A stretch of 32,500 nucleotides of DNA, from contig JAHBMJ010002727.1 in NCBI GenBank assembly GCA_018398765.1, forward strand, positions 1 to 32,500, in the 5' to 3' direction. The notes under the pieces were generated by a model. The model had not been told where the DNA came from and ran no database searches. It saw only the letters and a list, made by a program, of their open reading frames with translations. The stretch is from Chromera velia. Its lineage: Eukaryota > Sar > Chromeraceae. Each line of letters opens with the position of its first letter. Position 1 is the stretch's first letter. Shown piece after piece: positions 6,772-27,661 of the stretch. The translations under genes and the position numbers were made by a program.

Positions 6772-7750
6772 CTAGCTGTCTACATCGACCCCCAGCAGAG
6801 GAAGAGACCGTGAGGACTGTGCGGACACTGCCTCCATCTCTTCTCGTTCGATTTCGCGAGTCCGTGAGAGAGCCAAGAACTCAAGCAGATCCAGCGCAGC
6901 AACCGCTGCAGAGGCGCATAGGGTGGCGTCGAAGAGTGAAGAGGCAACGAACCGACGGGACCTAAGGGGAAAGGCCCGAGTCCCTTCCAGCAGGACCCGC
7001 ACGCGCCGCCACAGAGAGACGGACAGGAAAAGGTGCGGGTCTGATTGCCTGCAGAGAGACAGAAGCGAGGAGACACGTGCGAGGCGTGGGAGTCCAGGGA
7101 TTCTCTCGTAATACAGAATCGCCCCCGGCTGGGAGGAGCAAGGGGTGTCGCACAGGTGTCAGGCTAATGTGATGAAGCTATCCACTGTATGCCTGCCAGA
7201 CGGTTGCTTTGCTTCCTCTTTTCTTCGGGCCCTCAGACAAAAGATGTGTCTATCTGTTTCTCAAGTACCGGGCGGAAAAGTACAAGAGTGCCTACCTGTG
7301 TGTGTGTGTGTGTGTGTGTTTGTGTTTTGTCTGAGTGCACTCCCGAAGGCCGACCCACCTCTTCTTCGCCAGCCAAGCGTGAGAAGTCTTCCCTCCCACA
7401 GCGCTCGGAAGTTGTGCGATCTGCAAAGAGATCAGTCAAAACAAAGAGAGGAAGAGAGCTGAACAGGCAGGCAAATACGGAGAAACATAGAAAGACGGTG
7501 CGGGACTGTGAAACTGGCCATGTTTAATGTCATTGGCTTGTCTTCGCCCGGCAGCGGAGGAGCCCCCCAGAGAGACTGATCATGCTTGGCAGAGAATTCG
7601 CAGCATTTCTTTTTCTTGAATTGCCCATCTCGCATCAATGTTAACGCAAGTGACAGCAGATCAGATTCTTTCTTCATGCTCCCCGTGCACAAGAGCTGTG
7701 TGTGCGTTTGTGTGTGAAAAGCAACAAAACCCGCCCCCTTTCTACAGACC
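6772..7750 (-). other. RICTOR exons 15 end-17: conserved C-terminal segment
   Basis: Exon 15 ends HAEVLSK with donor AAG|GTCTGT at 7750. The 62-base exon 16 (7420-7359) gives IAQLPSAVGGKTSHAWLAKK with donor GAG|GTGGGT. Exon 17 (7048-6772) gives QSDPHLFLSVSLWRRVRVLL, then FPLRSRRFVASSLFDA and an acidic end before TAG. The joined order matches the C-terminal end of animal RICTOR, where an EVLRLVINL...K segment leads to FRLPCRRFIQELF. Both phases (0, then 2) agree, which supports splicing over read-through to the TAA at 7432. Confidence 0.75.
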
Positions 7751-10700
7751 TTGGAAAGGACCTCTGCGTGTTCTGATGAGAAATTGAGTCTTCTTGCAAT
7801 TTCGGTATCTGAATCTCCCCCATCTGAGTCCGAATCTCCGTGAAGGTTTCTCTCTGGTGGCATGTCCCGTCTTCCATGTCTCAAATGTCCTCCTGCCCTC
7901 CTCCCTCTCTTCATCTCTCTCTCTTTCCTCCGGTGTCTTCTCTGCGTCTCTCTCTCCAGTCGCTCGTTTGCTGCAGCCTCAATCATCCTCAACCTGCTCT
8001 CCCCACGGATCCCCGAGGCGATCGGTGGAGCTCCGGGGAGGGAAAGGGTCCCCGCACCCTTGCGGAGACAACGAAGAAGCGCACGCTGCCACCAACGCAG
8101 AGGTGCAGTGGGGGGTCTGTCCATTCTGTTGGAGGGAGACGCTGTGGGAGAGGGGGGGGTTCGGGAGCTTAGAGAGACTGCACCAACGGTCTCGGGTGCC
8201 CTCTGAAGCCCCCTGGTGGATGTTGCATGGGCATCCGTCTCTGTTACCACCCCTCCGCCACGACTTGCAAAGAGACTTGCCCGAAAGAGACACACACCCG
8301 GATGGGCAGTGTCTTCTCTCGTCGATTCGGGAGGTCCTTCGTCGTCTGTCGAGAGTTCAGAAGAGGATGCGAAGGAGGAAGTGCCGGAAACGGAAGACAG
8401 AGACGGAGAGACAGGCTCGGGAAGTTCAAGGTTCTCGTCCCACCGCATGGCAGTGAAAGGAGGGGGGGATTCGAGAAAGGTGGAATGGTCAGTCGACATC
8501 GGAGCCACATACTCGGATGACTCTTCTTCTTCATCTGCCATGGGCATGTCAAAATCAGCGAAAATTTCCTCCCCGGCTAATGTTTCTTTTTTCTCTTCTC
8601 CCTTTTCACTTGCATCACCCCTGTTGGCATCCCGACGGCCCCTGACATCCAAAAGAACCAGTCCACTGCCCGACTGCACACGTCTCATTGTTGAGGAACT
8701 CATCATTCTCCCCCCCCCACCCCCGATCGTCGGCGCATTCGCTCGTTTTCCACCGGGCCCAGAAGACAGACTGAAACCACTCCCACTACTTCCATTCCCC
8801 ATACCCCGCACCGTTGACGCCTCACCCCCATTTCTCGGCTGTGCCCGCCCCCCCCCTCCCCCGGGCCCCCCCCGATGCGCCTCCAACCTTTCTCTATGGG
8901 CCCGAGGTGAATGGGATGTCGGTTGCAGTTGCTGAAACGCTGACAGCACCGGCAACGCTGCGGAGGTGCGGGCCCGTCTCCCGTCTTCAAATGGAGACGG
9001 AGATGCAGCAAAGCGAGCTGCTGAGGGTCGGTTCAGCGTTGGGAGAGGCTTTTCTCCAGGGCCCCCCACTCCTTGTCCCTCAATTCCTATGGCCGAGACG
9101 GGTTGTGCTCGAATGTTGGCGGCAACACTTCCCCCCCCCAAACCTCCGTTGCCAACTTCACCCAGCGGCCTCGATGATGCAGCAGTGTCTGAAAACACAC
9201 ACCCCACCACGCACTTCTCCCTCTGCATATCCCTCCCCCCACCCTGCCGATCATTTGCACCCCCCTCCCTCTGTCGTCTAGTGTCCTGCACTCCCGTCTG
9301 CTTAGCCTTCCATGCTCGGAACTCATCATCGCTGTCGCTTTCTTCATCGCTCACACCCAACCCCCCCGCCCCCTTCAAAGATGACGTCAACCCACTTTTA
9401 CGCCCCGACCCCTCTGACGGCCACACATTCCCCGACAAACCCCCTCCTCCCAACTGTAGGCCCTCTGCCTGCCCGTCCTGCATCTGAATCCCGTTGGCGT
9501 TGGCCATACCCAACGCAGAGGGCAGCGTCTCATGGCCGAGACTCTGCCTTTCGACGGCATGAAAAGAACGAAAAGGCGCCTCCCTTCCTGAGACGGAATC
9601 TCCTTCTTTATCTCTGTCAAGCCTCGGGGCAGGCTCTGACACCCCTCTAGGAACCTCAGCAGAACGAGAAGAAGTCCCCATCTTCCTTCCTCCGCCCCCT
9701 GCATGCCCCTGCTGCTGGCTCCGCATCCACGCAGCTAACTCCTCGTCGGAGTCCTCTTCGTCTTCTGCAGAGTCTGCGGACTGAGGATGAGGAGGGCCTG
9801 CACCATTCCCCACGCCCATTGAAGGGAAAAGGGGAAAGGGAGGCGCCCCCTTCCTATCTGTCTCGTGGCGGCTCTGGGGGACGGGGGTTGCTGATCTTGG
9901 GGGCACAGCAGCAGAGGCAGAAGAAGAAGAAGAAGGGGCAGGTCTCTCCGGAGACGTCCTTCTTCTTTCTTCCTTAACTTCCACAGCCACAGGCCCCTGC
10001 CTCTTCATCCACGCGGAGAATTCCTCATCCGAATCCTCATCTTCCCCTCCACCCTCCGAGATAGACACAGGCCGCCCCCCCCCATTTGCAGCCCAAGACA
10101 AGGGCCTGTCTGTGCCCTGATCTGATGCCGCAGGAATCGGGGCAGAGGGGGCAGGTTGGTTGAGGACAGACGGACTGGCGACTGCTGCAGGGGAGGGCGG
10201 GGCAGCAGGAGGAAGCATTCTTCTGTGGGATAGGGGTTTGACCTCTCGGACAATTTGTGCCTGTCTCCGCATCCACTCAGCGAACTCTTCATCCGAGTCC
10301 GCCTGCTCATCTTCTGCTTCTGCTTCGGCGAAAGCAGCTGCGGTGGAAGGTGCGGGGGTTTGCGAAGGAGGCAGAGGCGTCCCCGCACTGCCATCAGTTG
10401 ATCGCTCTTGATTGGCAGAGACTACTGCGTCCTCTTCCCACCCTCCTGCTTCCCCTCTTCCCCCTTTTCCCGGAGAAGGCACAGACCCTTCCGCACTCGC
10501 TGTGCACGCACTCAGCCCCTCCACGGCCGTTGCCGTCTCCTCCTCTACCACACTCTCCGGCGTCAACACACGACGCCAGCTGGGGCCAATCGTCTCTTCA
10601 GGAGCCTCTGGGAGACCTCTCTCCTCAGGGGCAGCTGTCGCCAGAGGATTTCCACTTATAGAACTGCGTCTGACGGGTCTCCTTCCATGTAGCTTGTTGG

Positions 10701-13530
10701 CAAGGTCAGTGCTGGAGGAGGGGTAGTGTGCTGCAGTCCATCTAGGCACCTTGGGGGGCATACGGGGAGTCGGGGGGAGCGGGCGGGGTGATGATGATGA
10801 GGAAGAGGATGCCGCAGCTGCAGAGGGACTTCGGGGAGATCGTGTGCTTGACCGGTTGCCTCCCTTTGCAGATCTCCCTTTGCCTCCTTTTCCTCCTTTG
10901 AAGGATCCGTCTGCATCGCCATCCACAGACCCCTCTCTTGTCATCTCCCCGTCCTGCTGCGATCTGCCCCCACGGCTCCGTCCCTTACTCCCCGTCCCGC
11001 TTTTGACCACACGCTTCGCTCCCCTCCGGCATGCCACCAGCTCTTTCACTTCTTCGTGAAGAAGGGCTGCGTGTGCTTGGAGGCGCGCACGATCACAGCG
11101 CCGCAGGAGCAGACGTGAACGGGGGCTGAGATTTCGGCACCGTTTGTTGCATGCAGATGCAGATGCGGGACTGTTCTCTTTGACGGCGCGCTCTGCCTCG
11201 CGCAGTATGCGCATCTGTTCTCGGGCAGAGGGGGAGATGGTGACGGAGACAGCTGAGACAGTCTGATTATTCACAGATTCACTGTGTCCCAACCCACCAA
11301 TTGGGTTTTCCATTCCTTTTTCTCCAACGTCTTCCTCTCTTTCATCTTCACTCCCCCCATCCACGTCAAAAAACGTGTGAAGGTTCGTGGGCCCTCTCGC
11401 AACAAGGTCCCACCCTTGCTTGCGTGCCTCCTCCACCGACAGAGGGCAGATCAGAAGGAGGCCCAGAGCATACGCCGCAGTTCCCCTCACACCCAAATTG
11501 GAGGCCTTCAGAGCGGTCCGCACGAGCACTGCAAGCAAAAAAGCAGGCAGCCATCAAGAGACAGCAAAAAAGCTCTTTTTCTTCAATGCAGTACAGACAG
11601 ACAGACAGCCAAGAGCTACCGAAAGCAGGTTAGTTGCCCTAAGTGCCCAGGGAGCACAAGGACCCAGCCAAAAAGGTAGGACGCGGAATGAACATAATGC
11701 AGAAAAAGCCTCTCGTCATTCCACTCCCTTCCTCACTCACCCTCAAGGCCCCCGGATCGGTGGAGTGCCGCCAAGCCGTTGAGAGAAGACCCGAGGTGAC
11801 CCAGACACCAAATGTACGCGCGAGTCTGCATGTGCGGACAAAGGAGGAATGTAGAGACATGCAGACAAACAGAAGGGAAGATATGCCCGCCCGACCCTCT
11901 CAATCCGATTGCACATTCATCAGACAAAGTGTCTCTCTTTCAGTCTACCCATCTTTCCCTGACGCTGATTTTTGGAACCAGGCCAAGTGACGAACAGAGA
12001 GAGCCCGCAATAAGAATGTCGTTTCTGCCTTTTTCTTCCGTTCTTTCTTTCACCAGACCGACCTCCAAGGAGCATATCTCTGCTTCCGAAACCCCCCCTC
12101 CCCCCGGAGTTTCCTGCCGAGCTCCGCTGTCTGCTGGAGGGGGCCCGCCGGTCTTCAGTCTGCTCACGATGGTGGCGATGCAGCCCCGACGCTCGAGGTA
12201 TTCGACGCCTGCATACACACGCACGCACGTACACAGAGGTTTGTTTTTTTTATCACCTTACCTTTTTCTTTTGTCATTTCGGACTGCCGAAAAGAAAAAA
12301 AGCGGCAAAGGAAGACAGACAGTAGAAAGCTGAAAGAGACACCCAGTCGGTCCAGAGAAACGGAACGAGAAGAAAGAAGGCGGAAGTTTCTCTCCAACAA
12401 GGCACAGTTTTCCACGTGCACGCAACGCATGTTAGTCAACAGGGGTGCGGGGGAGCGCAAACCGACCCGCTGTCGTTTGGGCCAAATGAGCGAAGAGGTG
12501 TGGAGGCGCCACCAAGGGCGGTGGGGGCTCAGGTGTGACTTGAACGTCGTGACTGAGCCCCAGGAGATAGATCATCTTCCACTCAGCCCTGCCCCCTGCT
12601 CCTGCGACAGTGGTTGCCCCTTCCAACGTTGACCTCCGGGGAAGGGAGAGAGAAGAGGATGTGGCAGAGTGGGATGGCATCGAAGAGAAGCCTGAAGGGG
12701 GTTGGCTCTCTGAGAGTCTCTCTTTCCCTTCTCCCTCACATCCTTCCTCTCTCTTCCCTGAGGGGAATGCTTGGAGACTTGTGGTGCTCAGCCCCGTCTC
12801 TTGCTGTCCGTGCTGCACCCTGCTTGCCTGGCTGCCCCTGGGCACTTGCTGAGAGGCAGAGCCCTCGTCTGCAAAGATCCAGTGCAACACCCCCCCCGAG
12901 ACCATATCGAAGCAGAAGCTGGTAGACGCCAGAGCGCCCAGGTCAGGGTTATTGGAGAATCTCTCGATCACGCTGTGGGGGGGTCTTCTTGCAAGGTCGC
13001 AGGGCACAGAGGAGGCAGAAATGGACACGCGAGGGTGCTGTCTGCCTCTTTCATCGCAGCCGGTGTTGGGATAGAAGACGTGCCAGAAGGCAGAGGAGGC
13101 CCCAGAAGAGAACACACCATCGGCCGTCAAAAGATCTGCACCAAGTGCGAGACCCACACAAACCCGATAGTCCTGGTAGGACATTAACACTTCTGCAGGG
13201 ACACCACAGAGCTCTGCCCTCGCAGCCTCATCCTCGTGCATCCCCCCTCCTTCCTTCTCCCGTTCCCTCTCATTTGAGTTCTCCCTTCCCCCGGTAGGAG
13301 GACGCTGCAGGTGGTCTGGGTGCCACTTGAAGCCTGGGTCTCTGGTCTGCTTCTGCAGGCGGACCGGCAGGGGAATGCACCAGGGTCCTGTTGGCTGGAG
13401 GTGCATCCCTCCTCTGTTCGATTGCGCTCTGGCGGAAGGCATCACTGCCGGGGAAGTGAACCGCAGGGAGCAGGAGAGGGACAATTCCTTCACCAGCACC
13501 CAGTCGCCCCTGCAAGAGCGAACACACACA

Positions 13531-13580
<50 letters not shown>

Positions 13581-16500
13581 GAGAGAAAGAGAGAGTTTGA
13601 ATATTTGAGCACAGTCGCTTTCAGGTACAGATCTTTGGCTTGAACCTCTGAAGAGAGAGGTGGCATTACTCCAGTCGCTTGAGAAGATACAGACGGAGAG
13701 CAGAAGACCAAAATCGCAGAAGAAAGCAGTGCCAGCGAAGGAAGAAGAGATTCAAATGAAGTGAAAGGCGCAACCCATGCAGTAGATGGACAGACACACT
13801 GACTGACATTCTCGGAAGGGCCTCAATCCGCACAATCATCCTCCAGGGAAGACGACCGCTCAGTTCCAGACGAAGAAAGTCAGACCCACAAGAGCCTGGG
13901 GAAGCAGGAAGAGAGAACTCTCGGGAACTCGCAGCCTGTGCCATGAGACATGCGGGAGAGCACCCCTTCTCTCTCTGCTGCTTCATTCCTCTGTCTACCT
14001 CTCCCTCGTCTTCCTTCGCTGTTCCCGTTAGCTCGGCCACATTTCTGGCATCCCGCACTGCCTGCGCTCCCGGGATGCCCCCGTACTTTCCGAAGCAATC
14101 GAAGTCAGAGACGGACTCCCCGTTTTCGTGGAGGAACGCTCGCACGGCCTCTGCGTTGTTGCGGGATGCAGAAGGAGGGCAACAGTGACTTTCGGGAGTG
14201 TTCTGGTTCTCTTGCACCACCGGGCCCTTGGTGGCAGGGGCCCTGTCTGGAGACGCAGCAACACTCGTGGCAGCTCCCGTGTGTGGAGACACGAGAACCA
14301 GGTCGGCACACGAGGTGCAAGACACACAGAGGTCAAGGGTCGAATCAGTTGTCACCGACTCCCCTCCCCTCAGAAACGCAGCACGGGGAAGGCACACAGG
14401 ACGGCACTTGGGACCAGCGGCCCCCCAGTGGTCTTCTTTTTCTGGGCCTTCCTCGTCCTCCTCCTCCTCCTCTTCCTCTGGAGTCCCCTCTCCAACTGCA
14501 ACTGCCCCTTCTCGATTGGCAGCCTTGCTCCCCTGCCCCTTTGCTCGTAAACCCTCCCCTGATCTCTTGAAGAACAGCTGCACACAGGAAGAGAAAGCGG
14601 GCCGAGGTATACACATATTGAAAGTCTACAAATCACTAAACCTCCCTGGCGTGTGCGTGTGGGCTTATATGTCTCTGTCTAGGCCGCTCTATGCCTCTTT
14701 CTCTCGCATATCTGTTGCTCTCTCACAACCTAAAATTCGCTCTCCCTCAATCTACCAACATGACAAGCCGTCCTCTCCCTTCCTCTGTGCGTGTGTGTTT
14801 GTGTGCGAGAGAAGACGAGGCCATCCTCATAAGAGCGGTTCTTGACAGCGGAGAGCCTTTCTTCCTCTTCATTTCAGCGCTTCATCCTCCCACCGTGGAC
14901 ACGCACCGCCTGGCCGACCTGAAGAAATTCGGCATCCACTTCTCTGACATAGTGGAAAGCCCCGCTCCTCATGAACGAATCAATCTCTCTGATCAGCCAC
15001 CCCCCCTCTGTGAGAGCCAGGACTCCCTTAGACGTCTGCAGACAGGCGGCCTTCAGAGACCGGGGCCATTCGTGCCGGCACAACCACGGCTTCCTGTTCG
15101 TCGGGTCACGCCATACCGCACCCTGTGGCATCCCGAGTGCGGCCGCCTCCCTCTGCATGGCATCTCCCCACACATCCAAGAGGGACTGTGCCACCTCTGC
15201 TCCCCCTGCAGAAGCCATGTGCTCCAGAACGTCCATGCACGAATTCCACAGAGCGACGTCGGAACGTGCAGCGAGCACCGTGCTAATGGGAAGAGCGAAA
15301 GGGTTCTCGAACAACACGCCCTGAGCAGCCAGGACGGGAGAAGAAAGAAGCAAGTTCACCCCACACTTGACAGTCTCGGAAAGTGCCCACCTCCACACCG
15401 AGAAAGAGGCCTCGGGGGTGTGCGTGTCGGTCCGACTACCGCTGTCAGGAGGGGAATCGGGGGGGAGAGATCGTGGATCCACAGGCGGCAGAATGTTATC
15501 GCTTGTCGGAACAGTTTTGGGGGGAAAGGAGGAAGCTGCAGGTGCAGTCTCTGTCGTCCATTTCCTCACAGACGTGGCTACTTCTGCTGGCTCCTGGTTG
15601 ACGCTTTCCTTCTCTTCAAACACAACGGCACCGAACGGCTCGTGTGCTGCAGGGGCAAACGGCCCCCCCATCTCGCAGAGGCGGGCAGGGACAGAGGCAG
15701 CAGCACCAGGAGGACCCCACATGGACAGGGGGCTCTGTTGCTGCATCAGCTGTTGCTGTTGTTGTACTTGGAGGGAGGAGGGGGGAGAACCTCTTTGGAG
15801 ACGGCTGAATGGAGGGGCAGGAGACGGAGACGAGGGGGTGCCGCCAGACACAGATGCCCCCGACACAGCGGCTGCTGCACCCATGCACTCCAACGCCACC
15901 CCAGGAAGAGGCCTCAGGTCGGAGGGCAATCCTCCGACACCAGAAGCGTCTCCGTCTACACTTGGGACGGGAAGGTTTTCATAGGGGGGAGAGAGGCCTC
16001 CCCAGGGACCAGGTACACCCTCAGTCCCTCTGCGGTTTCTGTCCCATAGGGTCGCGGGTGAGGGCGCGCCCAGGTCGCCACTCGCCAGACGGGACCGGCT
16101 CCCGTGAGTATGGGCACGAGAAATTCCACGGGCGACGCCAGGGGCGACACCGGACGTGGACAGGGGTGTCCCCACACCCCCTGCACCACTCAATTCACGC
16201 CCGCCAGGTTGATTCAAAGCACTGCCCGCAGGACTGTTAAACATTGTGCCGCTGCTGACAGTCGGCAGCCCTGCCCCACTTCCTCTGTCGGGGCCAGCGG
16301 ATGTGCCGCCCGTCTGTTGCCCTTGTGGTAGTGCTCTCTGAAGTTTGTCTGGAAGGAGGTTGGTGGTGTGGAAGAGTAGACGGAAGTGCCTCAAGCAGGC
16401 GATGCGAAGGGCCGGGCTTCCCTTGGCAAAGACCTTCTCGATGAGTTGCCTGTGGTTGGCAGACTGCAACGACAGATGAGGGATCAGTGCGGCCATGGCG

Positions 16501-19500
16501 GGGTCTCCTCTCTGGTGTTCGACCAATCGAAGGAGCAGATCGGGAATCTTGCTGGAAGTCAGAAGCTCCTGACCTGAGGGATGAGAGGACAACACACCCA
16601 GAAGGGCAACCCACTCACGTGCCAAATATTGACCCCCTCCGAGGAAATCGGAAAGCGATCGGCGGGATCCTTCGGGTGCTGCTGCTGCCGTCGGACTGTT
16701 CGGCACGGGATCTGTGTCAGTGGGTCCCGGCATGCCGCCACTGTTTGCCGGGATCGTCTGGGCCCCTGAGAGGACGTACACCGTCTGGAGGGGGAAAACG
16801 GTTTCATCCCGAACTCCGAAAGGAGTGCAGTAGGGCGGTTGGAAGAGAGCACTTCCCAGAGGGCGGGAAAGAGGGGAGCGTGGGTGTGCCAACATCTTCA
16901 GGGGTGACGGGCCCCTGCCGAGATAAGAGGCTAGCTCGGCCCTTTTCTTCGCAACCCGGGCCAGATGATAGAGAGACGGGGACCGACCCACCCCCTTGAG
17001 AATTGCATCCAGAGAAGCAGAGGACGAAGAGGAAATTCGAGAGCGGTTCTGCCCAGAGAACGCTCCCCCTCTCCCATCTCTCTCATCTTTTTCTCTCCTC
17101 ATACGCTCACGGTCACTCTCACGCAACAGGTTCTTTCCGTGCACCCCACCCCCTCCCGACTGCCATTGAAGCAGACTCTGCATGTCGGGCCCTTCCGAGC
17201 TAGACCGTTCCCGCCCACTCCGAGGAAAAACCCCTGCCCCGCCTCCCGAAACCGCCCCCCCGTCTCCAGACGCAGGCCCGAAAGCAAAGCTCCCGTCGGC
17301 CCCAGGACCGCTCTCTGCCGGCTTCGGCACGAGCACCGCACTTGTCTGGATGCGTCGCAGCCCCCCCCGACTTGACGCACGCGCAGCCCCCCGCGCAAAT
17401 CCTTGCATCGCTGCCACCGCAGAAGGTGTGCCAAATTCCAGTAAGTGACGGTGATCAGCCCCAAACAACTCCGCACTCATAAGAGGGGGCAACTCGTCAA
17501 TGTCAGTTGGGGGGGGACGCGACAGGCCATACTCCGGGGTGCCTGATAAGGTTTGACTGGCAGCGGCTTGAGACGGAATGGGCGTTGCGGCAGATGGAGA
17601 CGAAATGAGTCTGTTCACGTAGCTTGCACCCAGACCCGAGTGCCCTTCTTCCCCCCTTTCTCTTTCTCTTTCTCTCTCTCTACTGGCTGCTTCGAAACCG
17701 GCAGCGTCGGCCCCTCTGGTCTCTTCCGCACGGAGACATTCTTCAAGAAGAAGCTCCGCAAGGTCATCAAGCAAGGACTCTCTCCTTTCCATGAAAAACG
17801 AAAAATGTGCAGGTGCGATTAGTTTGCTTCCCTCTGGGTGGTGCAAGAGGAGACCGAACAAAGCGATGCACGCCCGAAGCACCACCAGGTTGGAGGTCGT
17901 CCAGGCCAAAGAAAGAAAGAACGACGAGTTGCGAGGTGAAAAAAATCTGCACACAAGAAGGGAAGGGAAAGATGTGCGGGCGACTTTACACCCCTGACGA
18001 TGTCACAGAACAAGAAACCTAAATACACACTTCTCCCCAGACCACACTAGGCGGGCAGAGCAAAGGGGAAACGAGTTGAGGAGACGCCAAAGGAATGTGG
18101 AAGCTGCCCAATTCGATAAGAAAAAATGACAGTGACAGCCATCTCCTCGAAGCCTCTCTGAACCAAGGACGGTTGACGGCTCGCTTGTATCCCGGCCTCC
18201 ACTCGCCCCTTTTTCGAACTGACTTAATAATTCGTCGCAGAAAAATGCGTCTGTTTTTCTCCGTCAAGTTCCGCACAGACTGGAGAGGCCCAGAGACCAC
18301 CATCAAGATCACGTTCCAATTCCTGCAGGTAGGCACAAACGAAGAAGACATACTTCAAGAGAAGCTCCCTAAAGGTTGCTGATTCTTCGACTGACTTTTC
18401 GACGGAGAAGATCTTCCCTTTCCTTTATCCTTTCAACTTTCAGCAGAAAAACAACAGCAGGGAACGAAGGGAATGCCGTACTCAAAGCAACACAGGAGGG
18501 AAATTAAGCAGAAGCACCGACTAACCAACCATCTTCCAGGTTCGGCGCTCTGTTCGAGCACCCCTGACAATTTCATCAACTCAACCATGTCTGCCCCAGG
18601 GTGACGCAGTCGAAACGAAGGCTGGGCTCTCGACAACTTTTCTCCGACCTGCATCTCTCTCAATACGCACACACACGCGCACACACAGAGAGGGAGAAAA
18701 GAAAACAGGCGCCCTCATAAAAAGAGAAAAAGGAACGTACAAAAGCACAAACACATGGAAAGCAAAACAAAAGAGAGCGGAGCATAAGGCCAGAAGACGG
18801 GCAGATAGATATAGATGTATGTTTCCAGCCAGACCGCCAAAGAGATACTGCGAGAAGGGGACTGAGTCAAAGCGACATGCTTGAAGGAAAAGAAAACAGA
18901 ATAATTTGATACAGCTGCCCAATGAACCAACCGACCGACCTGTCCCTCCAAAAGGTGGGGGTTCGAGGCTGCTTGCAGCGACTTCTGCACTGCGTCTGCT
19001 GCGTCTGCGTAGAAGAGTGCGGGGAGGAGGCCCGACCGCGGCACACGAGAAAAAGAGGGACCCAGCGCAAAAGGGCTGTCTGCTTCTGTGCCTGTGCCGG
19101 GGTCCTGTGGGCCCTCCCTCGTTGTCACAAGGGAGGCTGGCGGAAGGTGATGCATGAGCCCCGCTGCAGAAAGAAAGAAAGAAACAAAGAAAAAACAACC
19201 AAGCACAGATTCTGCTCACTTACAGCCATAAAGACGCATTCTTATTTTTGAAGCAGGTACGGGGCAGTCGGGAAAACAACGAAGGCAGCTGCGGCCCTTC
19301 TCCACAAAAAGCCTGTTTGTTTCAGAACAAAGGAGAGACAGTCTGGCGGACAGCCAAGTCAAGCAGAGACCATTTGAGTGTTTCATCTTTCCTCACTTGT
19401 GTGCCTGTGTATGGGAAGGGCAGCGAAAGGCTTGGTTTGAAAGCGAGGGTGGAGAGGTCTACAGGAGTCCCTCCGGCAAAGATTGTCTGACTGTTTCACT

Positions 19501-20855
19501 GACCATTCGGAAATCCGAGCGGCAACTGAAATGAATGCAACTCCGGCTGCATATGCGATGGCAAAACACTTCCTCCTGCGTGCTGCAACAACAGCAAAAC
19601 TCTCCAGGCCTTCTTTCCATTTTCGTTCAAATCTTCCAGTTCCTGATCCCCCCTCGGAACTCCATCTTTCCCCTTGCCCACGCCTGCCACCGGGGCATCC
19701 TCAGGGTTCGTCCTCTTAAGGACCCTTTTTTCCCACAACCCTCTCCATATGCCCCGGCAGAGGGTTGTCAGCTTTGTGTGAAGACCGAGACGAAGTAGAG
19801 TCCGAATCAGAAGGGCAGAGTAAACAGAGCCAATCTCAGCAGAAGGAGCCGTCCGCCAACAGAACAAGCCACACACACACGTACTTCCCTCACCACCACT
19901 ACCACTACCAGCACGTCCGCATGACAAGCAAGCGCCCCGCTGGTGAACCGAAAGACCTCTACCAACTTGCACACTACTACGCATACCTTGCTCACCCCCC
20001 ACACCAACTGCACCTACCACCGCTCCTTGACTACCTCCACCCCAGTTTCCTTGCTGGTGCATCTTTCCACGTTGCTGTTCACTTGCATACTCAGTAGAAT
20101 GAAGCAAAGGAAGAGACGCAGATGACTCTCGCGTCACAGCCAACCCCCCCATGCTATTGCTTCCAGTTCCTGCCGACTGAATTTCTCTTTCCCCCTGTCG
20201 GCCTCTGACACCATCCCCCTCCTCAATCCGCCCTCTGCTACCGTTACGAGCCATCCCCCGGATGCCGGGGTCCTGCTCTCGGGGCATGTCAGGAGACACA
20301 GCGGCTCCTGTCCGCACACCCCATGAGGGGCCCCGGCATGCCCCCGTGACTCCGGGAGGGGGCACCTCCCCACGTACAAGGGCTGCCACAGCAGCACTGG
20401 CACTTTGTGCTGGCCTCTCTGTCCCATGCCTGGTGCCATTCAGAGCCGGCGAGCGGGAGGAAAACGCAGGAGGAGGTCCTGCATGGGAAGGGTGGTCCTG
20501 AATGTCCGAGGGGGACTCGCCTGACGTCCCTCCCAGGACCCCCCCTCCCCTTTCTCCTTCTCCTTCCCCTGCTCCTAGTACCAGTTTTGCAGCTGCCGAC
20601 CTTCTACTCGATTCATCAGGCAACCCCCCTCCCGACAGCTCAGGACCAGCCAGAAAGTCCCGACCTTGGTGCTCCCCTCCTCTTCCCCGCCTCCGGTTTC
20701 CGCTGCCCAGAACTGCACCGATTGATTGTATACACACAAAAAGTGAGCAAAATGTAGACGAGCGAATGCCAAGAAAATCGCTAGCAAGCCTGTCAACAAA
20801 AGCACAGGAAAATGAAGATGCAGCCACGCGAGCAGACACCCTCCGTTCCTCAGCA

Positions 20856-20893
<38 letters not shown>

Positions 20894-23800
20894 TATATGT
20901 TTCTTCTTCTCCCTTCTTTTCTTCATGAACACAACAGACAAAAAGAAAGAAAGACAGACAGACAGACAGACAGACTATATGTTTCTTCTTCTTCTCCCTC
21001 CTTTTCTTCATGAACACAACAGACACAAGGCTATATGTTTCTTCTACTCTCTCCAGACAGACAGACAGACTGACTGACTGACAGCTTCCAGAGTCCAATC
21101 TGGAGACGTCCAAAAATTCCTCCACAGTCAGGTAGCTCTTCGTACTGCACGCGTCTGAGGGTCCCAGACGTCGTGGGACTGCTGCAGAGGAAGAGGGAGC
21201 CTCTCCCGACAGCAGCTGCAGGACATGCACGCGGAAGGCAGGTAGGGAAGGAGGGAAAGTGCAAACAAAATACGAATGGGCGGATGAATGAGCAACTCCG
21301 TTGAAGGTAACACAATTGATTGCAGTCAGGAGAAAGGGGTCAGTTCAGAAGAAAATTGCAAGCCAGCTGAGACACTCTCTACTTCAAAAAGAGACTGAAA
21401 GGAACAAATCGATGGCCCAGATGAATTGCGTCTCTCTGCGCAGCTCTCTCGATTTCATTCCCCCTCGAGCAGTAATAAGTGGGAGGCAGCGATGCACGCA
21501 CAACCAGGCAGGCACGCAGGCATTCGTGGAAAAGTGGAAGGGTGAGAGGCTTGTCATGAGCCCTATCTAGGCAGACAGGCAACGAGACAGACAAACCCTG
21601 TTTGGTTCTTGCGCACTCTCCTCGGACCTCAATCTGAATCTCCCTCTACCTCCTTCTCCTTCTGCCGTCGCCCCACCACCCTCAATAAGACAAGCACCAC
21701 TCATTCCGTCTCTTGGAGGAGAGACTCTTTCTGAAGCCCCTCTCCCTCTTCGGTCCTCTTCTGCTGCTGCTGTGAAAGCGGCAGCAGCCGATGAAGAGGA
21801 CGACGAAGCTGCAGCACGCCCACTGTTCTCTTGGAACGATCTGCTCCCCCCCTCCCTCGACCTCCCTCGTTGTCCTGCATCTGCCTCTGCCTCATCGCCT
21901 TCCCCCCTGCCCCCATCTTCAGATCCCGGGGACCCCCCAATATCCCACGACACGGTTCTCTTCCTGCGAGGAACTCCCACCGTTGTTGTGTCGTGAAAGA
22001 CAAGAAGATGCTGCGATCCCCGGGAAGGCGGCGGCACGATTGCGGGGGCAGGGTGGTCGGATGATCCCCCGGCTGGGGCCGTTTGTGGGTGGGTGGTAAC
22101 TCCTGTCTCCTCAATGGGTTCGTTGACTTCGGGAAAATCCTCCTGAGCGGACTGTTGCCGAGAGTAAGAAAATTGATACGCAGGGGGAGTGGGAATCAAA
22201 TGATCCCTGTCCCCCCCCGCAAATCCGGTAACAGTCGTCAGGCCCTTCGCCAAAGATGCGGACCCAGGGGTAGCAGGAGAACCCAAAGACGGCCCTATAG
22301 ATGCATCTGCAGAGTATATGCGTCCCCGCTTCTCTGCGTCCAGTCCTCGATCCCCCCCTCGCCTGTATCCTTCCTTCTGAAATCTCTCTTCTGGACTAAA
22401 CACAAACCCGTACCCCCCAAGCCCAAGTCCCTCATGCTCATGCTGGGGTTGCATTTCCATCTCAATCTCCCTTCGAGGCCCTGATCTGGCCACACTAGCG
22501 CTGGTTGCTCGGCGAAAAGACGGGCGACTCCCCGACACCTCAGCTCTCAGCAAGGCCTGGGGAGGGAAAGCGAGGGGGCCCATCTCTCGTTGAAGGGCCC
22601 TGGATCGAAACAAAAAGGGGGGCCCTCCAGCTTCAAGGACCCCGGCATCTTGTTCGTCTCTCTCTTTTTCTGCCTCTGCTTTTTCCTTCAGGCGCTTGTC
22701 CGTTTCCAACTCAGAAATCCAACGAGATGCGTCCTTTGCATACCTACGGGAGTAACGACGGGAGAAAAAAGGCAAGAGGGTGAGACCGTAGCAGCAAGGT
22801 AGGAAGAGGAAGATGGAGGGGAAATTGGTGTATGAGTAATTCTTTCCTTGCACTTCCACTGAGAGAGGTCGACCTTTCTCCTCAAATTGTCGGTAAAAAA
22901 AAAAGAGCGCGTGCAACCGCACCAACAGAATGTCAACGGAAGGGAACCAAATCCACATCCCAACCGACCAATCGAAATTAAATTCTGCAATCCTGCCCAC
23001 CTATCCATTCAAAAGAAGGAAAGTGTTCAACAAAGGCCAAAAAGAGTAACAAGGCAGAAATCGACCGAATTGCTCATGTGTGCAGTTGGGCAGGTCAGTG
23101 AAACGAATCTTTTCCTTCCAGATCGGCGATCGACCCCACCCACCCACCTCGCTTTCTCCTGTGCAGCTGCGGGTGCGACCCCGACGGCAATAGCGAAGTC
23201 CAGGAGGTCTTTGAAGAAGTCGAGGGTAGCGGAGGTGCAGGCTGAGGGAAGGGGAACTGCGAGTCCCCCAACCAACGCATTCATTCCTGCAATCATGCAC
23301 AAACGTCAGCAACAGATTGTTTCGGCAGTGTACACACAGGCGAGCAGGATCATCCATCTATCTGTCTTTCTCTAAAGGCAGAGCGAAACGCGAATGTTTA
23401 AACGGAGTGAATACACGTCGGGCAGACAGCAGAACGCCTCAACACAGCACGCAGCATTTGCGAGTTCGTTGAGACATAAGAAATTGATTGACATGGGAGC
23501 TCTGCATGAAGAGACGAAGATCTATCCTGACAAAAGGTGTGACACAAACAAGGAGTTAACACAGGTAGCAGCACAAACCTGACAGAAAAAACTTTCAAAA
23601 AACAAAAGCCCACCTGTCGAACTCGATGCGAGGCCTACGAGACCAGCGATATGCTTGGCCATTGCCTCCAGACTGGCACGCGCACTCCGGAGACGCTTCT
23701 CGGCCGCAGTTAGCCGTCTCCCCTTCCTCTCTGTCGCCTGCGCCTGCACAACTGCCCCACCCTGTGCTCCAGCTGGTGCATCAGCTGCTGCCGCCATGTC

Positions 23801-24945
23801 TGCCACAGGTTGCCACATAGCCGGCGGCCTCTGTGCAGCTCTGGTGGGAGGCGACGGGGGTCGGGGTCTCCCTCCGATCATGCCGGCCCTCACGATGGCG
23901 TCATGATCGGATGAGTCTGTGAATACGGCAAGCACTCGGGAGACGTGCACCGTCCAGGGCACAGACAGACACGACACCAGCTTTCTCTTCCGACCTGATG
24001 CAAACAGAAGAACAAGGGCATGGGCTGCAGACTCACGAAGAGACACCGGCTGGCCCTCGTGAGAGGCACCGAAGGGCAAATCGGGATCACAGAGAGCGTC
24101 CACGAGACAGTCCAAACCCCCCATGTCAGCCAGCAGGGCCACCCCCTCTTCAAAAAACGTCATGTCCCTCAATGTCTCTAAACAACAGACGCGAAAAGGA
24201 TCGGATCTCACGTCTGCAATGGCAACCAAAGAGGCAACGAAACACCGTGGAATCGAAATAATGTCCGCTGCGTCTGGGTCCTTCGGGTCTGCCACAGGCT
24301 GATGAGTCGGGGTTTGAGGAGGCCACGGGGGACCGACCATTGTGTCGGCCCCCCCGACAGAAAGGGACAACGGTCTGCTGCTTTTCTGCTGCGCCGTTTG
24401 CGCTTTCCCCCCTGCACCCCCCCTCTTTGCCCTCTGTGTCTCGAACACTACCTGCATCCACTGCCTGATGGCCTTGAGGGAGGACGCACGCTCCCATATG
24501 CTGGTGCCTTCTAGAGCCACACACATGATGTGGGGGAGAGACAGGCTCTCGCAGAGCAGCAAGACCGCCGGGGTCACGAGCATGTACCTGCAGGCCCGGA
24601 AGGCCGCTGCACGCACGTCTCTGTTGGAATCCATCAGGAAGGACCGGATGATCGAGAGCATCCAGTACAGAGTCTGGTCGGGTAGCTCGCATCTCGTCAC
24701 CTCACTCACAAACAGACACTGCAGGCAGACAGGCAAAAGGAGACAGCGAAGAATGAAACCCACAAACCACGGCAAGGGTGTGCTGTGTGGAGGGAGACGA
24801 CACCTACCTGAGCCAGATTGGCAGCAGCTCCGAGCAAGTCCTGCTTGATCCTCAGCTCGATGCCTGTGGAGGGCAGACCAACTTGCTGATGAAGGAGGGA
24901 AAAGACGGCCTGGATCTTTTTCAGTGACTGCGTACGTGCGGGCAT
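6772..24945 (-). CDS. RICTOR homologue, TOR complex 2 subunit, about 4,500 residues, 17 exons
   Basis: RICTOR is the scaffold that, with TOR, LST8 and SIN1, makes TOR complex 2, which activates AGC-family kinases. Exons: 24945-24808, 24718-23614, 23286-23148, 22743-21597, 21215-21083, 20712-19504, 19163-18940, 18648-18530, 18322-18224, 17946-14919, 14577-13808, 13509-12467, 12208-12063, 11825-11741, 11528-7750, 7420-7359, 7048-6772. Every junction agrees in phase; the total is 13,503 bases, stop TAG. RICTOR blocks appear in the right order: helical repeats RDVRAAAFRACRYML; SALLIRTLLRLGL; WNWN across the exon 8/9 join, then RRIIKFFSP; WVALLGVLSSHPSGQELL; HLAQTTAGVEYLERRG; WCLGHLGSS; GVRGTAAYALGLL; and C-terminal FPLRSRRFVASSLF. 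Metazoan RICTOR has about 1,700 residues; the excess here is Ser/Pro/Gly-rich insert. The start is the first ATG in exon 1, with an in-frame stop upstream. Exons 4 and 5 have the weakest splice calls, and a shorter form could read from exon 15 to a TAA at 7432. Confidence 0.9.
7290..7325. repeat. (TG/AC)n microsatellite in RICTOR intron 16
   Basis: An uninterrupted TG run on the plus strand (AC on the gene's strand) lies inside intron 16 (7358-7049). Confidence 0.9.
9298..10299 (-). repeat. Four copies of a DSDEEFxxWMxxQ motif within RICTOR exon 15
   Basis: The long insert of exon 15 contains DSDEEFAEWMRRQ (10299-10261, residue about 3539), DSDEEFSAWMKRQ (10035-9997), DSDEELAAWMRSQ (9753-9715) and DSDDEFRAWKAKQ (9336-9298). 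An acidic run precedes each copy. The spacers of roughly 90 to 140 residues are unrelated low-complexity sequence, so only the motif is kept. Each copy holds a serine before acidic residues, a context used by casein kinase 2, and an invariant tryptophan. Confidence 0.9.
11400..14577 (-). other. RICTOR exons 11-15 start: RICTOR_V-type region
   Basis: Exon 11 (14577-13808) is mostly insert, with an acidic run of Glu/Asp (EEEEEEEDEEGPEKED), and ends GRLPWRMIVRIEALPRM. Exon 12 ends PPHLFAHLAQTTAG, and exon 13 continues VEYLERRGCIATIVSRLKTG. Exon 14 gives TRAYIWCLGHLGSSLNGLAA, and exon 15 opens VLVRTALKASNLGVRGTAAY then ALGLLLICPLSVEEARKQGW. Joined, they follow the animal order: a PxHLYGQL...TGCHLLE segment, then SLWALGNIGSS, then SIRGTCVYVLGLI. 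Residues are about 2448-3165. This is the best-conserved part of the protein and confirms exon joins 12 to 15. Confidence 0.92.
13526..13595. repeat. (AC)n(AG)n compound microsatellite at the end of RICTOR intron 11
   Basis: On the gene's strand this is a (CT)n run followed by a (GT)n run that ends about 15 bases before the acceptor TTGCAG|G at 13509. It forms the pyrimidine-rich end of the intron. Confidence 0.9.
14919..18648 (-). other. RICTOR exons 8-10: middle domain
   Basis: Residues about 1366-2447. MVELMKLSGVLEQSAEPGR then WNWN (the middle W and N codons lie at the exon 8/9 join) matches the RICTOR segment ending in NLEWNWN. Exon 9 ends RRIFLRRIIK and exon 10 continues FFSPRNSSFF, matching the RRLLYFYKPSS region. 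Later in exon 10 come REWVALLGVLSSHPSGQELL and LRIACLRHFRLLFHTTN (RICTOR_M-type helices). A long Ser/Gly/Pro insert follows with a glutamine run (QVQQQQQLMQQQ), then CGVNLLL, LWNSCMDVLEHMASAGG and GWLIREIDSFMRSGAFHYV, matching the block with NERGYVAKQLEKWH in animal RICTOR. Exon 10 is 3,028 bases without a stop. Confidence 0.88.
18940..22743 (-). other. RICTOR exons 4-7: long disordered inserts around a conserved helical core
   Basis: Residues about 461-1365. Exon 4 starts with a charged helix (ASRWISELETDKRLKEKAEA) and then becomes a low-complexity Ser/Gly/Ala/Glu region. Exon 5 is short (SYLTVEEFLDVSRLDSGS). Exon 6 is mainly Gly/Ser-rich but ends with SVYSALLIRTLLRLGLHTKL and KAWRVLLLLQHAG, which match the RICTOR block with LILSAFIRNGLLEGL-type helices. 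Exon 7 holds ALFYADAADAVQKSLQAAS. The exon 4 donor (AGG|GTTTGT) is the weakest in the gene, but it alone keeps phase 0 into exon 5. Confidence 0.75.
20861..21082. repeat. CAGA array with two to three copies of the shared cassette, in RICTOR intron 5
   Basis: Intron 5 (21082-20713) starts, on the gene's strand, GTCAGTCAGTCAGTCTGTC and passes into (CTGT)n. Embedded cassette copies, read on the plus strand, are at about 20889-20955, 20971-21030 and a short one at 21031-21060. Each begins CTATATGTTTCTTCT; the two full copies continue to TTCATGAACACAACAGACA. They are near-identical to the copies at 3151-3330 and lie in the same orientation. Confidence 0.9.
23148..24945 (-). other. RICTOR exons 1-3: N-terminal helical-repeat domain
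   Basis: Residues 1 to about 460. Exon 1 gives MPARTQSLKKIQAVFSLLHQ. Exon 2 begins CLFVSEVTRCELPDQTLYWM and carries HEAT/ARM-like helices (DSNRDVRAAAFRACRYML, ERASSLKAIRQWMQVVFE, SDPFRVCCLETLRDMTF, GGLDCLVDALCDP, SLRESAAHALVLLF), which follow the order of the RICTOR N-terminal domain (RICTOR_N family). Linkers rich in Gly, Pro and Ala separate helices that are contiguous in animal RICTOR. Exon 3 (NALVGGLAVPLPSACTSATL) adds two more helices. Introns of 89 and 327 bases have donors CAG|GTAGGT and CAG|GTGGGC. Confidence 0.85.
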
Positions 24946-25705
24946 GATTGCCACAGCCAGGCACGCAAAGGTGCCCCAGTCTCCCAAGAACGCCCCAGAA
25001 GCTTGTGCTTCGATTAACCAGACACTTGAGGATCGTCAAACAGCGACATCTGCTGGACGGAACGACGGGTATGCGTCTGCTTCCGAGTCCAGGCGGTTCA
25101 ATCAATCACGCACTTTCAAGCACACAGGCAGACTGAGCATCGTACACCCTCCACAATTGGGAACGCCGGTGCAAGTGCTGTCGTGGTTTTCAAAGCTCTT
25201 AATCGTCCGAAGTGTGCTTCGTTTCACGTCTGTGGCGCTTTCAATATGTAGACGTGTACCCCAAACTTCTTCAGATTTGAAAAGGAATCTGACGGACCAT
25301 CCGGTGTCAGACGGTGCTTCCTTCCTCCAAAATTTTGGCTTCGTACGTCACGTACGGTGGCCGTCTCTTTCGAAGTTGCCGGGGTCTTGCATGGACATGC
25401 ATGGACACCTTGCAATTTTGCATGGCCCCTGCGCGATCCTGCGCGATCCTGCGCGTGGTCTGAGTTCCCCCGTGGGGCCCCGGCATGGACTCTCGTACGA
25501 TGTCGTACGATGCCGTCTCCCATCATCGATCCCCCGCGCACATCAGACTTCGATCGCTTCTTTCATTCAATCTTTTCTTTGCAGATCGATTGCTTGTTTC
25601 AGAGAACTCGGCACCCGAAGACAATTTTCATGTCGAAAGTCGCAAGTGGTATCCCTGGAGTGCTCGTTTTTGTTGACTCAAGCTGTGCGTGCAAGTCGCT
25701 GAGAC
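24946..25705. promoter_or_regulatory. Divergent intergenic region between RICTOR and the hydrolase, with 10-base tandem repeats
   Basis: The two genes point away from each other across 760 bases, so both promoters should lie here. Three different 10-base units are each repeated in tandem: GCATGGACAT at 25389-25408, TGCGCGATCC at 25430-25455 (2.6 copies) and TCGTACGATG at 25493-25512. Two CGTACG palindromes stand 9 bases apart at 25342-25356. No TATA box or start site could be fixed. An in-frame stop above the RICTOR ATG argues against simple upstream extension of exon 1. Confidence 0.6.
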
Positions 25706-27661
25706 ATGCTTTGGAGACTTTTCGAAGAGAGGGTGCACGTTTCCATCAAAGCAGCCCTCCTAGTCACGCCCCTGTTCCTCCTTCCGTTCGTTGAGAGTTT
25801 TTCCGGCACTCCCTTCCCCGCCTTTCTACAGTCCCGTGCCCCTTCGAAACGAAGCACACGGGCAGTCACCCCTCCTTTCAACAGCCTCACGAGATCCGGA
25901 GTCGATTCTCCACACATCCTGTTCAGTGCTCCCCCACCCTCTCCATCCATGCCGGGGGTAATTGAGAAACCAGCAGTAACAGGCGAGGCAGAGGGCACTA
26001 AGCTGGTGAACGGCTTCGCTTGCAAGGAGTCGCCCGAGGGACAGAGGGAGGAGAAGAGTTTGGACTCCCTTCTCTGTTCTCTGGTTGCAGAGTTCAAGGA
26101 AGGGCACTTCTGTCCTCCCTGGTATGCAAGAGATTGTCACACCCAGACAATTGTGGGTACAGAGAGTCTCCAGCAGGTCGTGTCCGGCCGCACTTCCCAG
26201 ACTCCTTTCCTCAAGTCGGGAGCTCTGAAGAGACAAAGGTGGGAGACGCCTGACGGTGACTTCATCGACATCGATTTCCTCACGCACACGGACTCCGACT
26301 TGCTCACAGTCTGCCGAGACAGCTGTGCCGCAAAGCAGTCTGAGGAGATCGACGGACCCCCCATCTTCCCCCCCAACGGTGCTCTCCCAGACGAATACCT
26401 TGAGATGCCCGGTGTAACGGACTCTGACAGAGATGCAGATCCGAAAAATGTGGGGGGCGGGAGGCCGGTCGTGTTGGTGATTCACGGTCTAGAGTCCAAC
26501 AGCAGGGGGGCTAACACGGTCAAGCTCAGCCGTGCAATGTTCCACAGAGGCTTTGACGTGATGGCAGTCAACTTTCGTTCATGTGCCACAGGAGCGCCTT
26601 TGACCGGAATGGTCAAAAAGGAGGAAGGGGAGGCGGAAGAGGACGCTCCATTTGCCGAAGCCCTTCCCTTGAAACCGAAGTCTTATCATGTGGGGTTCAC
26701 GTATGACCTCAATTTTGTTACACGAAGATTGCGTGCTGCAGTTCCTGATCGCGCTTTGTTTGTTTGCGGATTTTCTCTGGGCGGCAATGTGTGTGCAAAG
26801 TTTTTGGGCGAGTTGGGCACTCACGCCCGTTCTCGCCATGTGTGGGGTGGGGCTGTTGCGTGTGTGCCTATGGATCCAGTTCTCTGCCAGTTAAAGCTGG
26901 ACGACGGTGAACTTCCCAGAACGTGGAGGGGTGAGGAGGGGGGGGAGTCTCATGAGAGGGGGACAGAGGTGGAGGACGAGAAACAAACTGGACATGCCGA
27001 TTTTGAGGAAGTCAGGGAGAAGTACAAAAAGGCAGCCGGGCGTCTCCACTTCAACAGAAGAGTCTATTCCGGCAACTTCTTGAAGAACCTCAGAGCAAAG
27101 GCTCTGTCTGTCAAGGACATGTCAGTCAGTCAGTCAGTCAGTCTTTCAGGCAAACGAACAGAGAGTAGACCAAAAGGGAATCATGAATAGCAAATCCGAT
27201 TGCCGAAGATTATCTTCTGGATATGCAGTGCCCTGCCCTCCCTCTGCCTTTCTTCCTCCTTGAACCCTGTCAGGCGGCTTTCTTAATCTAGCTGTCATGT
27301 CCTTCCCCACTTTTCTCTAGCTTCACTTGTTGTTAAATTTCTTCCCCCCCCCCTTTCTCGAACGCATGCGTCTGCAGCCTCCCTTCCGGATTCAACCTGA
27401 CCAGAGTTCTTGACTCAAAGGGCTTAGGGGAGTTTGACGACACCTTCATGGCCTCCGTGTGGGGGTTCAGGGACTACAGAGACTACTATTCGCAGAACGG
27501 GGCCAAGTGGTCAGTCGGAATTCCGCGACTCTGCAAGGGTCTATGTGTGACTTCGTTTCTGTTCGATTGCCTGCCCGCCTTCCCGAACAGACAGACAGAC
27601 AGACAGACAGACGGACAGCAGACAGACAGACAGACAGACAGACAGAAAGAAAGAAAGAAAC

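Follow-up and report, generated by a model that had tools for sequence, protein, structure and literature searches.

A predicted RICTOR orthologue of some 4,500 residues in Chromera velia, an alga reported to have lost TORC2

Extent and structure of the gene

The window analyzed here is a stretch of 32,500 nucleotides from the Chromera velia genome (contig JAHBMJ010002727.1, positions 1 to 32,500). On its minus strand, an ATG at 24945 and a stop at 6772 bound a hand-built model of a RICTOR gene with 17 exons, totaling 13,491 nt and coding for 4,496 amino acids (Table 1). The frames of the model are stop-free, the introns are GT-AG and the phases are compatible. Of ten further open reading frames in the flanks of the window, one gave weak low-complexity matches and the others none. 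An Rfam search of the window had no match at gathering scores.

Table 1. Exons of the RICTOR model and features within them, in window coordinates (aa, residues of the model; positions marked "arithmetic" were calculated)
Feature	Position	Strand	Description
RICTOR exon 1	24808..24945	-	aa 1-46; open frame, GTAGGT donor; ATG 24945 chosen by hand, upstream exons possible
RICTOR exon 2	23614..24718	-	aa 47-415, bulk of RICTOR_N; RICTOR_N 72.6 bits unspliced; human block 88-156, 0/300 shuffles
RICTOR exon 3	23148..23286	-	aa 415-461, later RICTOR_N; exons 1-4 joined, 88.1 bits, profile 26-301 of 371
RICTOR exon 4	21677..22743	-	mainly low-complexity insert, open frame; 3' end uncertain
RICTOR exon 5	21079..21181	-	based on splice sites only; uncertain, maybe skipped or longer
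RICTOR exon 6	19504..20789	-	open frame; insert, then a purely visual likeness to human 380-470; blocks D and E no better than shuffles
RICTOR exon 7	18940..19163	-	open frame, splice sites
RICTOR exon 8	18530..18648	-	end falls in first W of WNWN motif; block F
RICTOR exon 9	18224..18322	-	WNWNVIL...FLRRIIK; human 539-588 matched ungapped over 8/9 and 9/10 junctions
RICTOR exon 10	14907..17946	-	RICTOR_M and weak RasGEF_N_2, long inserts
RICTOR_M block	16374..16625	-	aa 1868-1951 (arithmetic); PF14666 45.1 bits, E 9.2e-12; human 655-739, 0/300 shuffles
Weak RasGEF_N_2 match	14928..15062	-	aa 2389-2433 (arithmetic); PF14663 17.7 bits, E 0.0045; block H (human 809-846) no better than shuffles
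RICTOR exon 11	13808..14577	-	insert; open frame, splice sites
RICTOR exon 12	12467..13509	-	terminal PPHLFAHLAQTTA corresponds to human 874 onwards; block I
RICTOR exon 13	12054..12208	-	block I; earlier 3' end possible
RICTOR exon 14	11741..11825	-	WCLGHLGSS (human WALGNIGSS); block I, RICTOR_V start
RICTOR_V	11410..11822	-	aa 3098-3164 (arithmetic); interrupted by intron 11740-11529; PF14668 14.3 bits unspliced, 51.7 spliced
RICTOR exon 15	7750..11528	-	remainder of RICTOR_V, then insert of ~1,200 residues; 1,259 open codons
Motif copy 1	10261..10299	-	DSDEEFAEWMRRQ
Motif copy 2	9997..10035	-	DSDEEFSAWMKRQ
Motif copy 3	9715..9753	-	DSDEELAAWMRSQ
Motif copy 4	9298..9336	-	DSDDEFRAWKAKQ
RICTOR exon 16	7359..7420	-	C-terminal block
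RICTOR exon 17	6772..7048	-	C-terminal block; TAG stop ends at 6772
C-terminal RICTOR block	6946..7764	-	aa 4380-4439 (arithmetic), spans exons 15-17

The model was assembled manually, with the coordinates of an earlier sequence-only reading known and human RICTOR as a guide. An automatic segment-based gene finder, run at three settings, gave 20, 11 and 10 exons, with a start at 25049 or 24634 and an end at 6772 in two of the three runs. It missed or shortened the conserved exons 8, 9 and 13, so the gene structure was settled manually instead. Phase consistency by itself is weak support for such a model, since any model gets picked for being consistent. The junctions near exons 8-10 and 12-17 were placed using human RICTOR homology, and so are not independent of the homology later shown with them. 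For exon 5 and the facing ends of exons 4 and 6, 210 combinations are acceptable, and the 31 listed give proteins of 4,436-4,550 residues.

Better support comes from splice junctions located inside conserved blocks. Once the exons were joined, the Pfam score of RICTOR_V rose from 14.3 to 51.7 bits and that of RICTOR_N from 72.6 to 88.1 bits. RICTOR_M and RasGEF_N_2, each within one exon, also rose in the joined query (40.3 to 45.1 and 14.2 to 17.7 bits, respectively), so query trimming may explain part of the rise. Two exons have exceptionally long open frames: exon 10 is open for 1,013 codons and exon 15 for 1,259, against longest runs of 390 and 276, respectively, in 200 shuffles. Inserts without a recognised domain and the ambiguous junctions in exons 4-6 could suggest that the region instead holds two or more genes, with a normal-sized RICTOR and certain long inserts representing separate genes or retained introns. 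We consider this very unlikely, given the junctions inside RICTOR_V, the WNWN block and the C-terminal block, the frames of exons 10 and 15 that stay open across insert and block alike, and the presence of a C-terminal RICTOR block at the far end of the region. The proposal of the sequence-only reading, a single gene of about 4,500 residues at 6772-24945, is thereby confirmed at the level of sequence for a RICTOR orthologue on the minus strand, with exons 4-6 partly unsettled.

Conserved domains and blocks of RICTOR

In a profile search with the joined protein, three RICTOR families pass their Pfam cut-offs: RICTOR_N (PF14664) with 88.1 bits against 28.5, RICTOR_M (PF14666) with 45.1 against 27, and RICTOR_V (PF14668), from exons 14 and 15 joined, with 51.7 against 27. 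The identity first proposed for the protein is borne out by these matches. The fourth family expected, RasGEF_N_2 (PF14663), stayed below its cut-off of 27 (17.7 bits, E 0.0045), with its position right in the domain order. RICTOR_N had no second match at E up to 0.001 in the genome searched (177.8 Mb, 4,040 contigs). With the inserts removed by hand, a core of 1,423 of the 4,496 residues gave E 1.6e-14 with human RICTOR chains and E 8.1e-14 with TSC11 among PDB sequences (phmmer). In the human match, the pieces of the core scored 8.0, 27.3 and 18.5 bits, and the C-terminus -2.4 bits.

Ten blocks were compared, against shuffles, with the N-terminal ~1,010 residues and the C-terminus of human RICTOR. 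Five score above every shuffle and are collinear (human ~88-156, 539-588, 655-739, 874-1000 and 1614-1676), in line with the right block order that the sequence-only reading had described; the other five do not stand out from shuffles in this comparison with human RICTOR alone. The C-terminal block scores 56 against the human C-terminal piece, compared with a mean of 22.9 and a maximum of 44 in 2,000 shuffles and with a maximum of 46 among 108 further segments of the same protein. It stands out against shuffles only, as it is not significant by phmmer (-2.4 bits) and the Pfam search gave no RICTOR family there. A single-sequence AlphaFold2 model of exon 2 was all helical, with a mean pLDDT of 48.7, too poor for a fold search.

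Inserts and other TOR components

The inserts of the RICTOR protein contain no domain recognised by Pfam. Within the C-terminal insert are four copies of DSD[ED]E[FL]xxW[MK]xxQ, which is a small new feature of the protein. The copies preserve the peptide while their codons differ, and a strict DNA pattern for the motif core has two matches genome-wide, both in this gene. TOR and LST8 of the same genome also bear an insert or tail. The expansion therefore seems to be a general tendency of this genome and not one particular to TORC2, making the giant size of RICTOR less special. The strongly expanded scaffold first described holds as far as length is concerned.

TOR was found on contig C2430 (FRB domain, 102 bits, and pieces of the kinase domain), and LST8 elsewhere in the genome with 42% identity (226 bits). 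A human protein query found RAPTOR on contig C3714 in three collinear pieces (E 3e-15 to 2e-10); a fourth match (E 0.36) was set aside. For SIN1, the exon-by-exon genome search gave no match to the CRIM profile and a best hit of E 1 with the human SIN1 query, which is not credible. As the Raptor_N profile, used in the same kind of search, overlooked RAPTOR, these SIN1 negatives are not counted as absence. The suggestion that the organism keeps TORC2 is thus matched by genes for RICTOR, TOR and LST8 and not by one for SIN1, and the complex itself is predicted from these genes. The sequence-only reading also considered, as a condition, that the organism is an apicomplexan relative, which agrees with a photosynthetic alveolate whose genome has 58 matches to light-harvesting proteins and 11 to alveolins, the latter on seven contigs with their open reading frames read. 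Two of the light-harvesting proteins reached at best 128 and 122 bits against PDB sequences, too distant to point to a species. The RuBisCO large chain had no match in an exon-by-exon search, which can miss genes; this result is at odds with Chromera, which is said to use form II RuBisCO (PMC3468483).

The divergent sequence and the SIN1 result (neither the CRIM profile nor human SIN1 finding a partner) might also be expected if the gene were a pseudogene or non-functional relic. We find this hardly believable in a model whose 4,496 codons lack internal stops, whose C-terminal block is still recognisable, and whose motif copies conserve their peptide despite differing codons.

Probable TORC2 in Chromera and comparison with known RICTORs

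According to a 2025 survey, TORC2 was lost in Chromera velia, and this autotroph was contrasted with the mixotroph Vitrella, which retains it (PMC12467227). The survey used annotated proteomes and a Panther profile, discarding scores below 100 bits (PMC12467227). Among the literature matches listed for RICTOR or TOR of alveolates, Chromera included, and within the parts of those papers covered, TORC2 in Chromera is stated in PMC12467227 only; the portions consulted of PMC5745459 and PMC11321763 make no statement on it. The conflict with the survey, to which the sequence-only reading did not refer, is the main interest of this work. The protein adds one more member to an established family, and is noteworthy for contradicting a published loss.

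Proteome-based scoring has probably produced the reported loss as an artefact. We think it highly likely that the gene is the sole detectable RICTOR orthologue of C. velia, encoding a TORC2 scaffold with looped-out inserts, and that the published loss is a false negative. Under this scenario, the conserved segments would assemble into one fold, like those of other RICTORs, and serve as the scaffold for a complex of TOR, LST8 and RICTOR, with ~3,000 residues of low-complexity inserts looping out between them. The C-terminal block may lie near the FRB domain, rendering the complex insensitive to rapamycin; a relation between the RICTOR C-terminus and FRB is described in PMC5745459. The false negative would go back to the divergence of the gene, its division into 17 exons and its interruption by inserts, which may bring it under the fixed cut-off of a proteome-based profile score. 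A more elaborate proposal, in which a working TORC2 has no recognisable SIN1, the giant disordered stretches of RICTOR with their gene-specific four-copy motif dock substrates in its place, and a mainly autotrophic alga defies the proposed tendency of autotrophs to lose TORC2, seems to us improbable.

If the high-likelihood reading of a retained scaffold is true, the contrast between Chromera and Vitrella vanishes and there is one inferred independent TORC2 loss fewer. Both surveyed chromerids would still have had TORC2, placing the loss on the apicomplexan side. Divergent, insert-rich, many-exon genes of alveolates may escape proteome-based scoring, and other reported losses of TOR components may be affected too.

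Vitrella brassicaformis is the chromerid for which retention of both TOR complexes is reported (PMC12467227), a likeness by report and not by sequence; its genome, at 72.7 Mb, is smaller than the 193.66 Mb of Chromera (5,953 scaffolds) (PMC4501334). Yeast TSC11 (AVO3; PDB 9rsq chain C, 1,430 residues), about one third the length of the Chromera protein, matches it best at the RICTOR_V region, within the alignment given above (E 8.1e-14). Human RICTOR (PDB 6zwm chain E, 1,708 residues) shows the same succession of RICTOR_N, RICTOR_M, RICTOR_V and C-terminal block, and the WNWN and WxLGxxGSS signatures are common to both proteins. Unlike in human RICTOR, RasGEF_N_2 is weak in the Chromera protein, which is ~2.6 times as long, with low-complexity inserts within and between the blocks. 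From RICTOR_V to the C-terminal block the Chromera protein spans ~1,200 residues, whereas human RICTOR covers the same interval in ~610.

Identity of the gene

The window is the opening 32,500 bases of contig C2688 (96,933 bases). On its minus strand, a row of long open frames starts near 25 kb and reaches 6.8 kb; even before splicing, individual frames hit RICTOR_N (72.6 bits) and RICTOR_M (40.3 bits). When the spliced model was searched with Pfam as six pieces (1,456 of 4,496 residues), RICTOR_N (88.1 bits), RICTOR_M (45.1 bits) and RICTOR_V (51.7 bits) all exceeded the Pfam cut-offs. RasGEF_N_2 matched weakly at its expected place in the order, below its cut-off (17.7 bits). The RICTOR identity proposed by the sequence-only reading is supported. 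For the remaining two pieces, one of them C-terminal, Pfam gave no RICTOR family. Among PDB sequences, a 1,423-residue core of the model matched human RICTOR chains (E 1.6e-14) and TSC11 (E 8.1e-14); the human match consists of ordered pieces of 8.0, 27.3 and 18.5 bits, with a C-terminal piece of -2.4 bits.

Ten blocks were also compared with human RICTOR (the N-terminal ~1,010 residues and the C-terminus), using 300 shuffles per block and 2,000 for the C-terminal block. The N-terminal, WNWN, RICTOR_M, RICTOR_V and C-terminal blocks scored above every shuffle and kept the human order, and the scores of the other five (B, C, D, E and H) stayed within the shuffled range. The only RICTOR_N match in a profile search of the whole genome (177.8 Mb, 4,040 contigs) is this gene. 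We regard its membership in the RICTOR family as secure.

Exon structure and continuity

The exon model was built by hand, with prior knowledge of the span earlier proposed for a 17-exon giant RICTOR, and it gives the same ATG and stop (all three frames read) and 17 exons, encoding 4,496 residues in 13,491 nt. Introns measure 89-495 bases; as counted by hand from splice-site lists over the gene span, the donor is GTNNGT in 13 of 16 introns, and TGCAG ends 14 of the 16. An automatic finder disagreed with the hand model (20, 11 and 10 exons). Between the end of exon 4 and the start of exon 6, exon 5 included, the model is unsettled, with 210 combinations passing simple enumeration, some of them lacking exon 5. 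Long TCTG tracts lie inside at least one intron. Divergent to RICTOR is a neighbouring frame with weak alpha/beta-hydrolase matches, the best (E 1.3e-4) below the cut-off.

Positions of the features discussed
Feature	Sequence	Positions	Strand
RICTOR gene, ATG to stop	window	24945-6772	-
RICTOR intron with TCTG tracts	window	21078-20790	-
Four motif copies, RICTOR C-terminal insert	window	9298-10299	-
Neighbouring frame	window	25703-27187	+
TOR FRB domain (L002)	C2430	11551-11931	
LST8 (L015)	C1919	82059-82973	
RAPTOR	C3714	20499-23350	

Several conserved blocks are interrupted by introns: RICTOR_V between exons 14 and 15, WNWN over exons 8-10 and the C-terminal block over exons 15-17. Because junction placement was guided by human RICTOR, this agreement between blocks and junctions is in part circular; the RICTOR_V score, which rises from 14.3 bits unspliced to 51.7 spliced, is the strongest indication that the agreement is genuine. 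Exon 10 is open for 1,013 codons and exon 15 for 1,259, the longest frames in 200 shuffles each being 390 and 276, respectively. The C-terminal block lies at the far end, beyond an insert of ~1,200 residues, and ties both gene ends together. Judged from sequence, the predicted exons are likely to form one gene, with strong support, and the single gene of about 4,500 residues first proposed is supported.

Inserts and a repeated peptide

Outside the six pieces taken as conserved lie ~3,040 of the 4,496 residues. With segment labels assigned by the author, Pro, Ser, Gly, Glu, Gln, Arg, Lys and Asp together make up 49-63% of insert segments, 39-52% of the core and 55% of one "middle" segment. The C-terminal insert carries four copies of DSD[ED]E[FL]xxW[MK]xxQ (residues 3535, 3623, 3717 and 3856). 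As the copies differ in codons at several synonymous sites, selection appears to act on the peptide, for which a docking role is our guess. A strict DNA pattern of the motif core has two exact matches genome-wide, copies 1 and 2; with up to two mismatches, four occur in the window against 0.03 expected there.

Expansion is also seen in TOR and LST8. The TOR FRB domain holds a Gly/Ala-rich insert of ~30 residues (98 profile positions span 127 residues), and long low-complexity frames, assigned to TOR by eye, lie 3' of its kinase domain. LST8 lies in one open frame of 404 residues and has an acidic tail ~90 residues long. From these few genes, protein expansion seems a habit of the Chromera genome. 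The scaffold is as long as proposed, but its giant size alone tells little about TORC2. The largest Chromera insert lies between RICTOR_V and the C-terminal block, a region that is long in human RICTOR too.

TOR complexes in Chromera

Chlorophyll-binding proteins account for 58 matches in the genome and alveolins for 11, the latter on seven contigs; a search for RuBisCO gave no match. The alveolin profile also matches in Caulobacter, hence the ORFs were read directly, and one (L003) shows repeated VEKxVEVPQVQ-like stretches of a kind typical of alveolins. Both families in one genome indicate a photosynthetic alveolate, in keeping with the apicomplexan relative first suspected.

Of the TORC2 partners sought, TOR (FRB 102 bits, with kinase-domain pieces) and LST8 (42% identity over residues 10-322 of 326) were found, but an exon-by-exon search for SIN1 gave nothing credible. 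Such an exon-level negative does not equal absence, since the Raptor_N profile missed RAPTOR in this same genome; a human protein query recovered it as three collinear pieces (41-47% identity).

TORC2 is assembled and stabilised by RICTOR, whose C-terminus in budding yeast sits close to the FRB domain and keeps rapamycin-FKBP12 out (PMC5745459). As the C-terminal block is recognisable, the predicted TOR-LST8-RICTOR complex with flexible loops would, by analogy, be rapamycin-insensitive.

According to a 2025 survey (PMC12467227), apicomplexans lack TORC1 and TORC2, Vitrella keeps both, and Chromera velia keeps TORC1 and has lost TORC2. That survey applied Panther profiles to annotated proteomes, discarded scores below 100 bits, added read-archive checks for some species and took RICTOR as equivalent to TORC2 whether SIN1 was present or not (PMC12467227). 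An annotated RICTOR model that was fragmented or scored below 100 bits would explain the reported loss. RAPTOR agrees with the survey's TORC1 call; the RICTOR gene gives this genome TORC2 by the survey's own criterion and likely contradicts the loss reported for Chromera velia.
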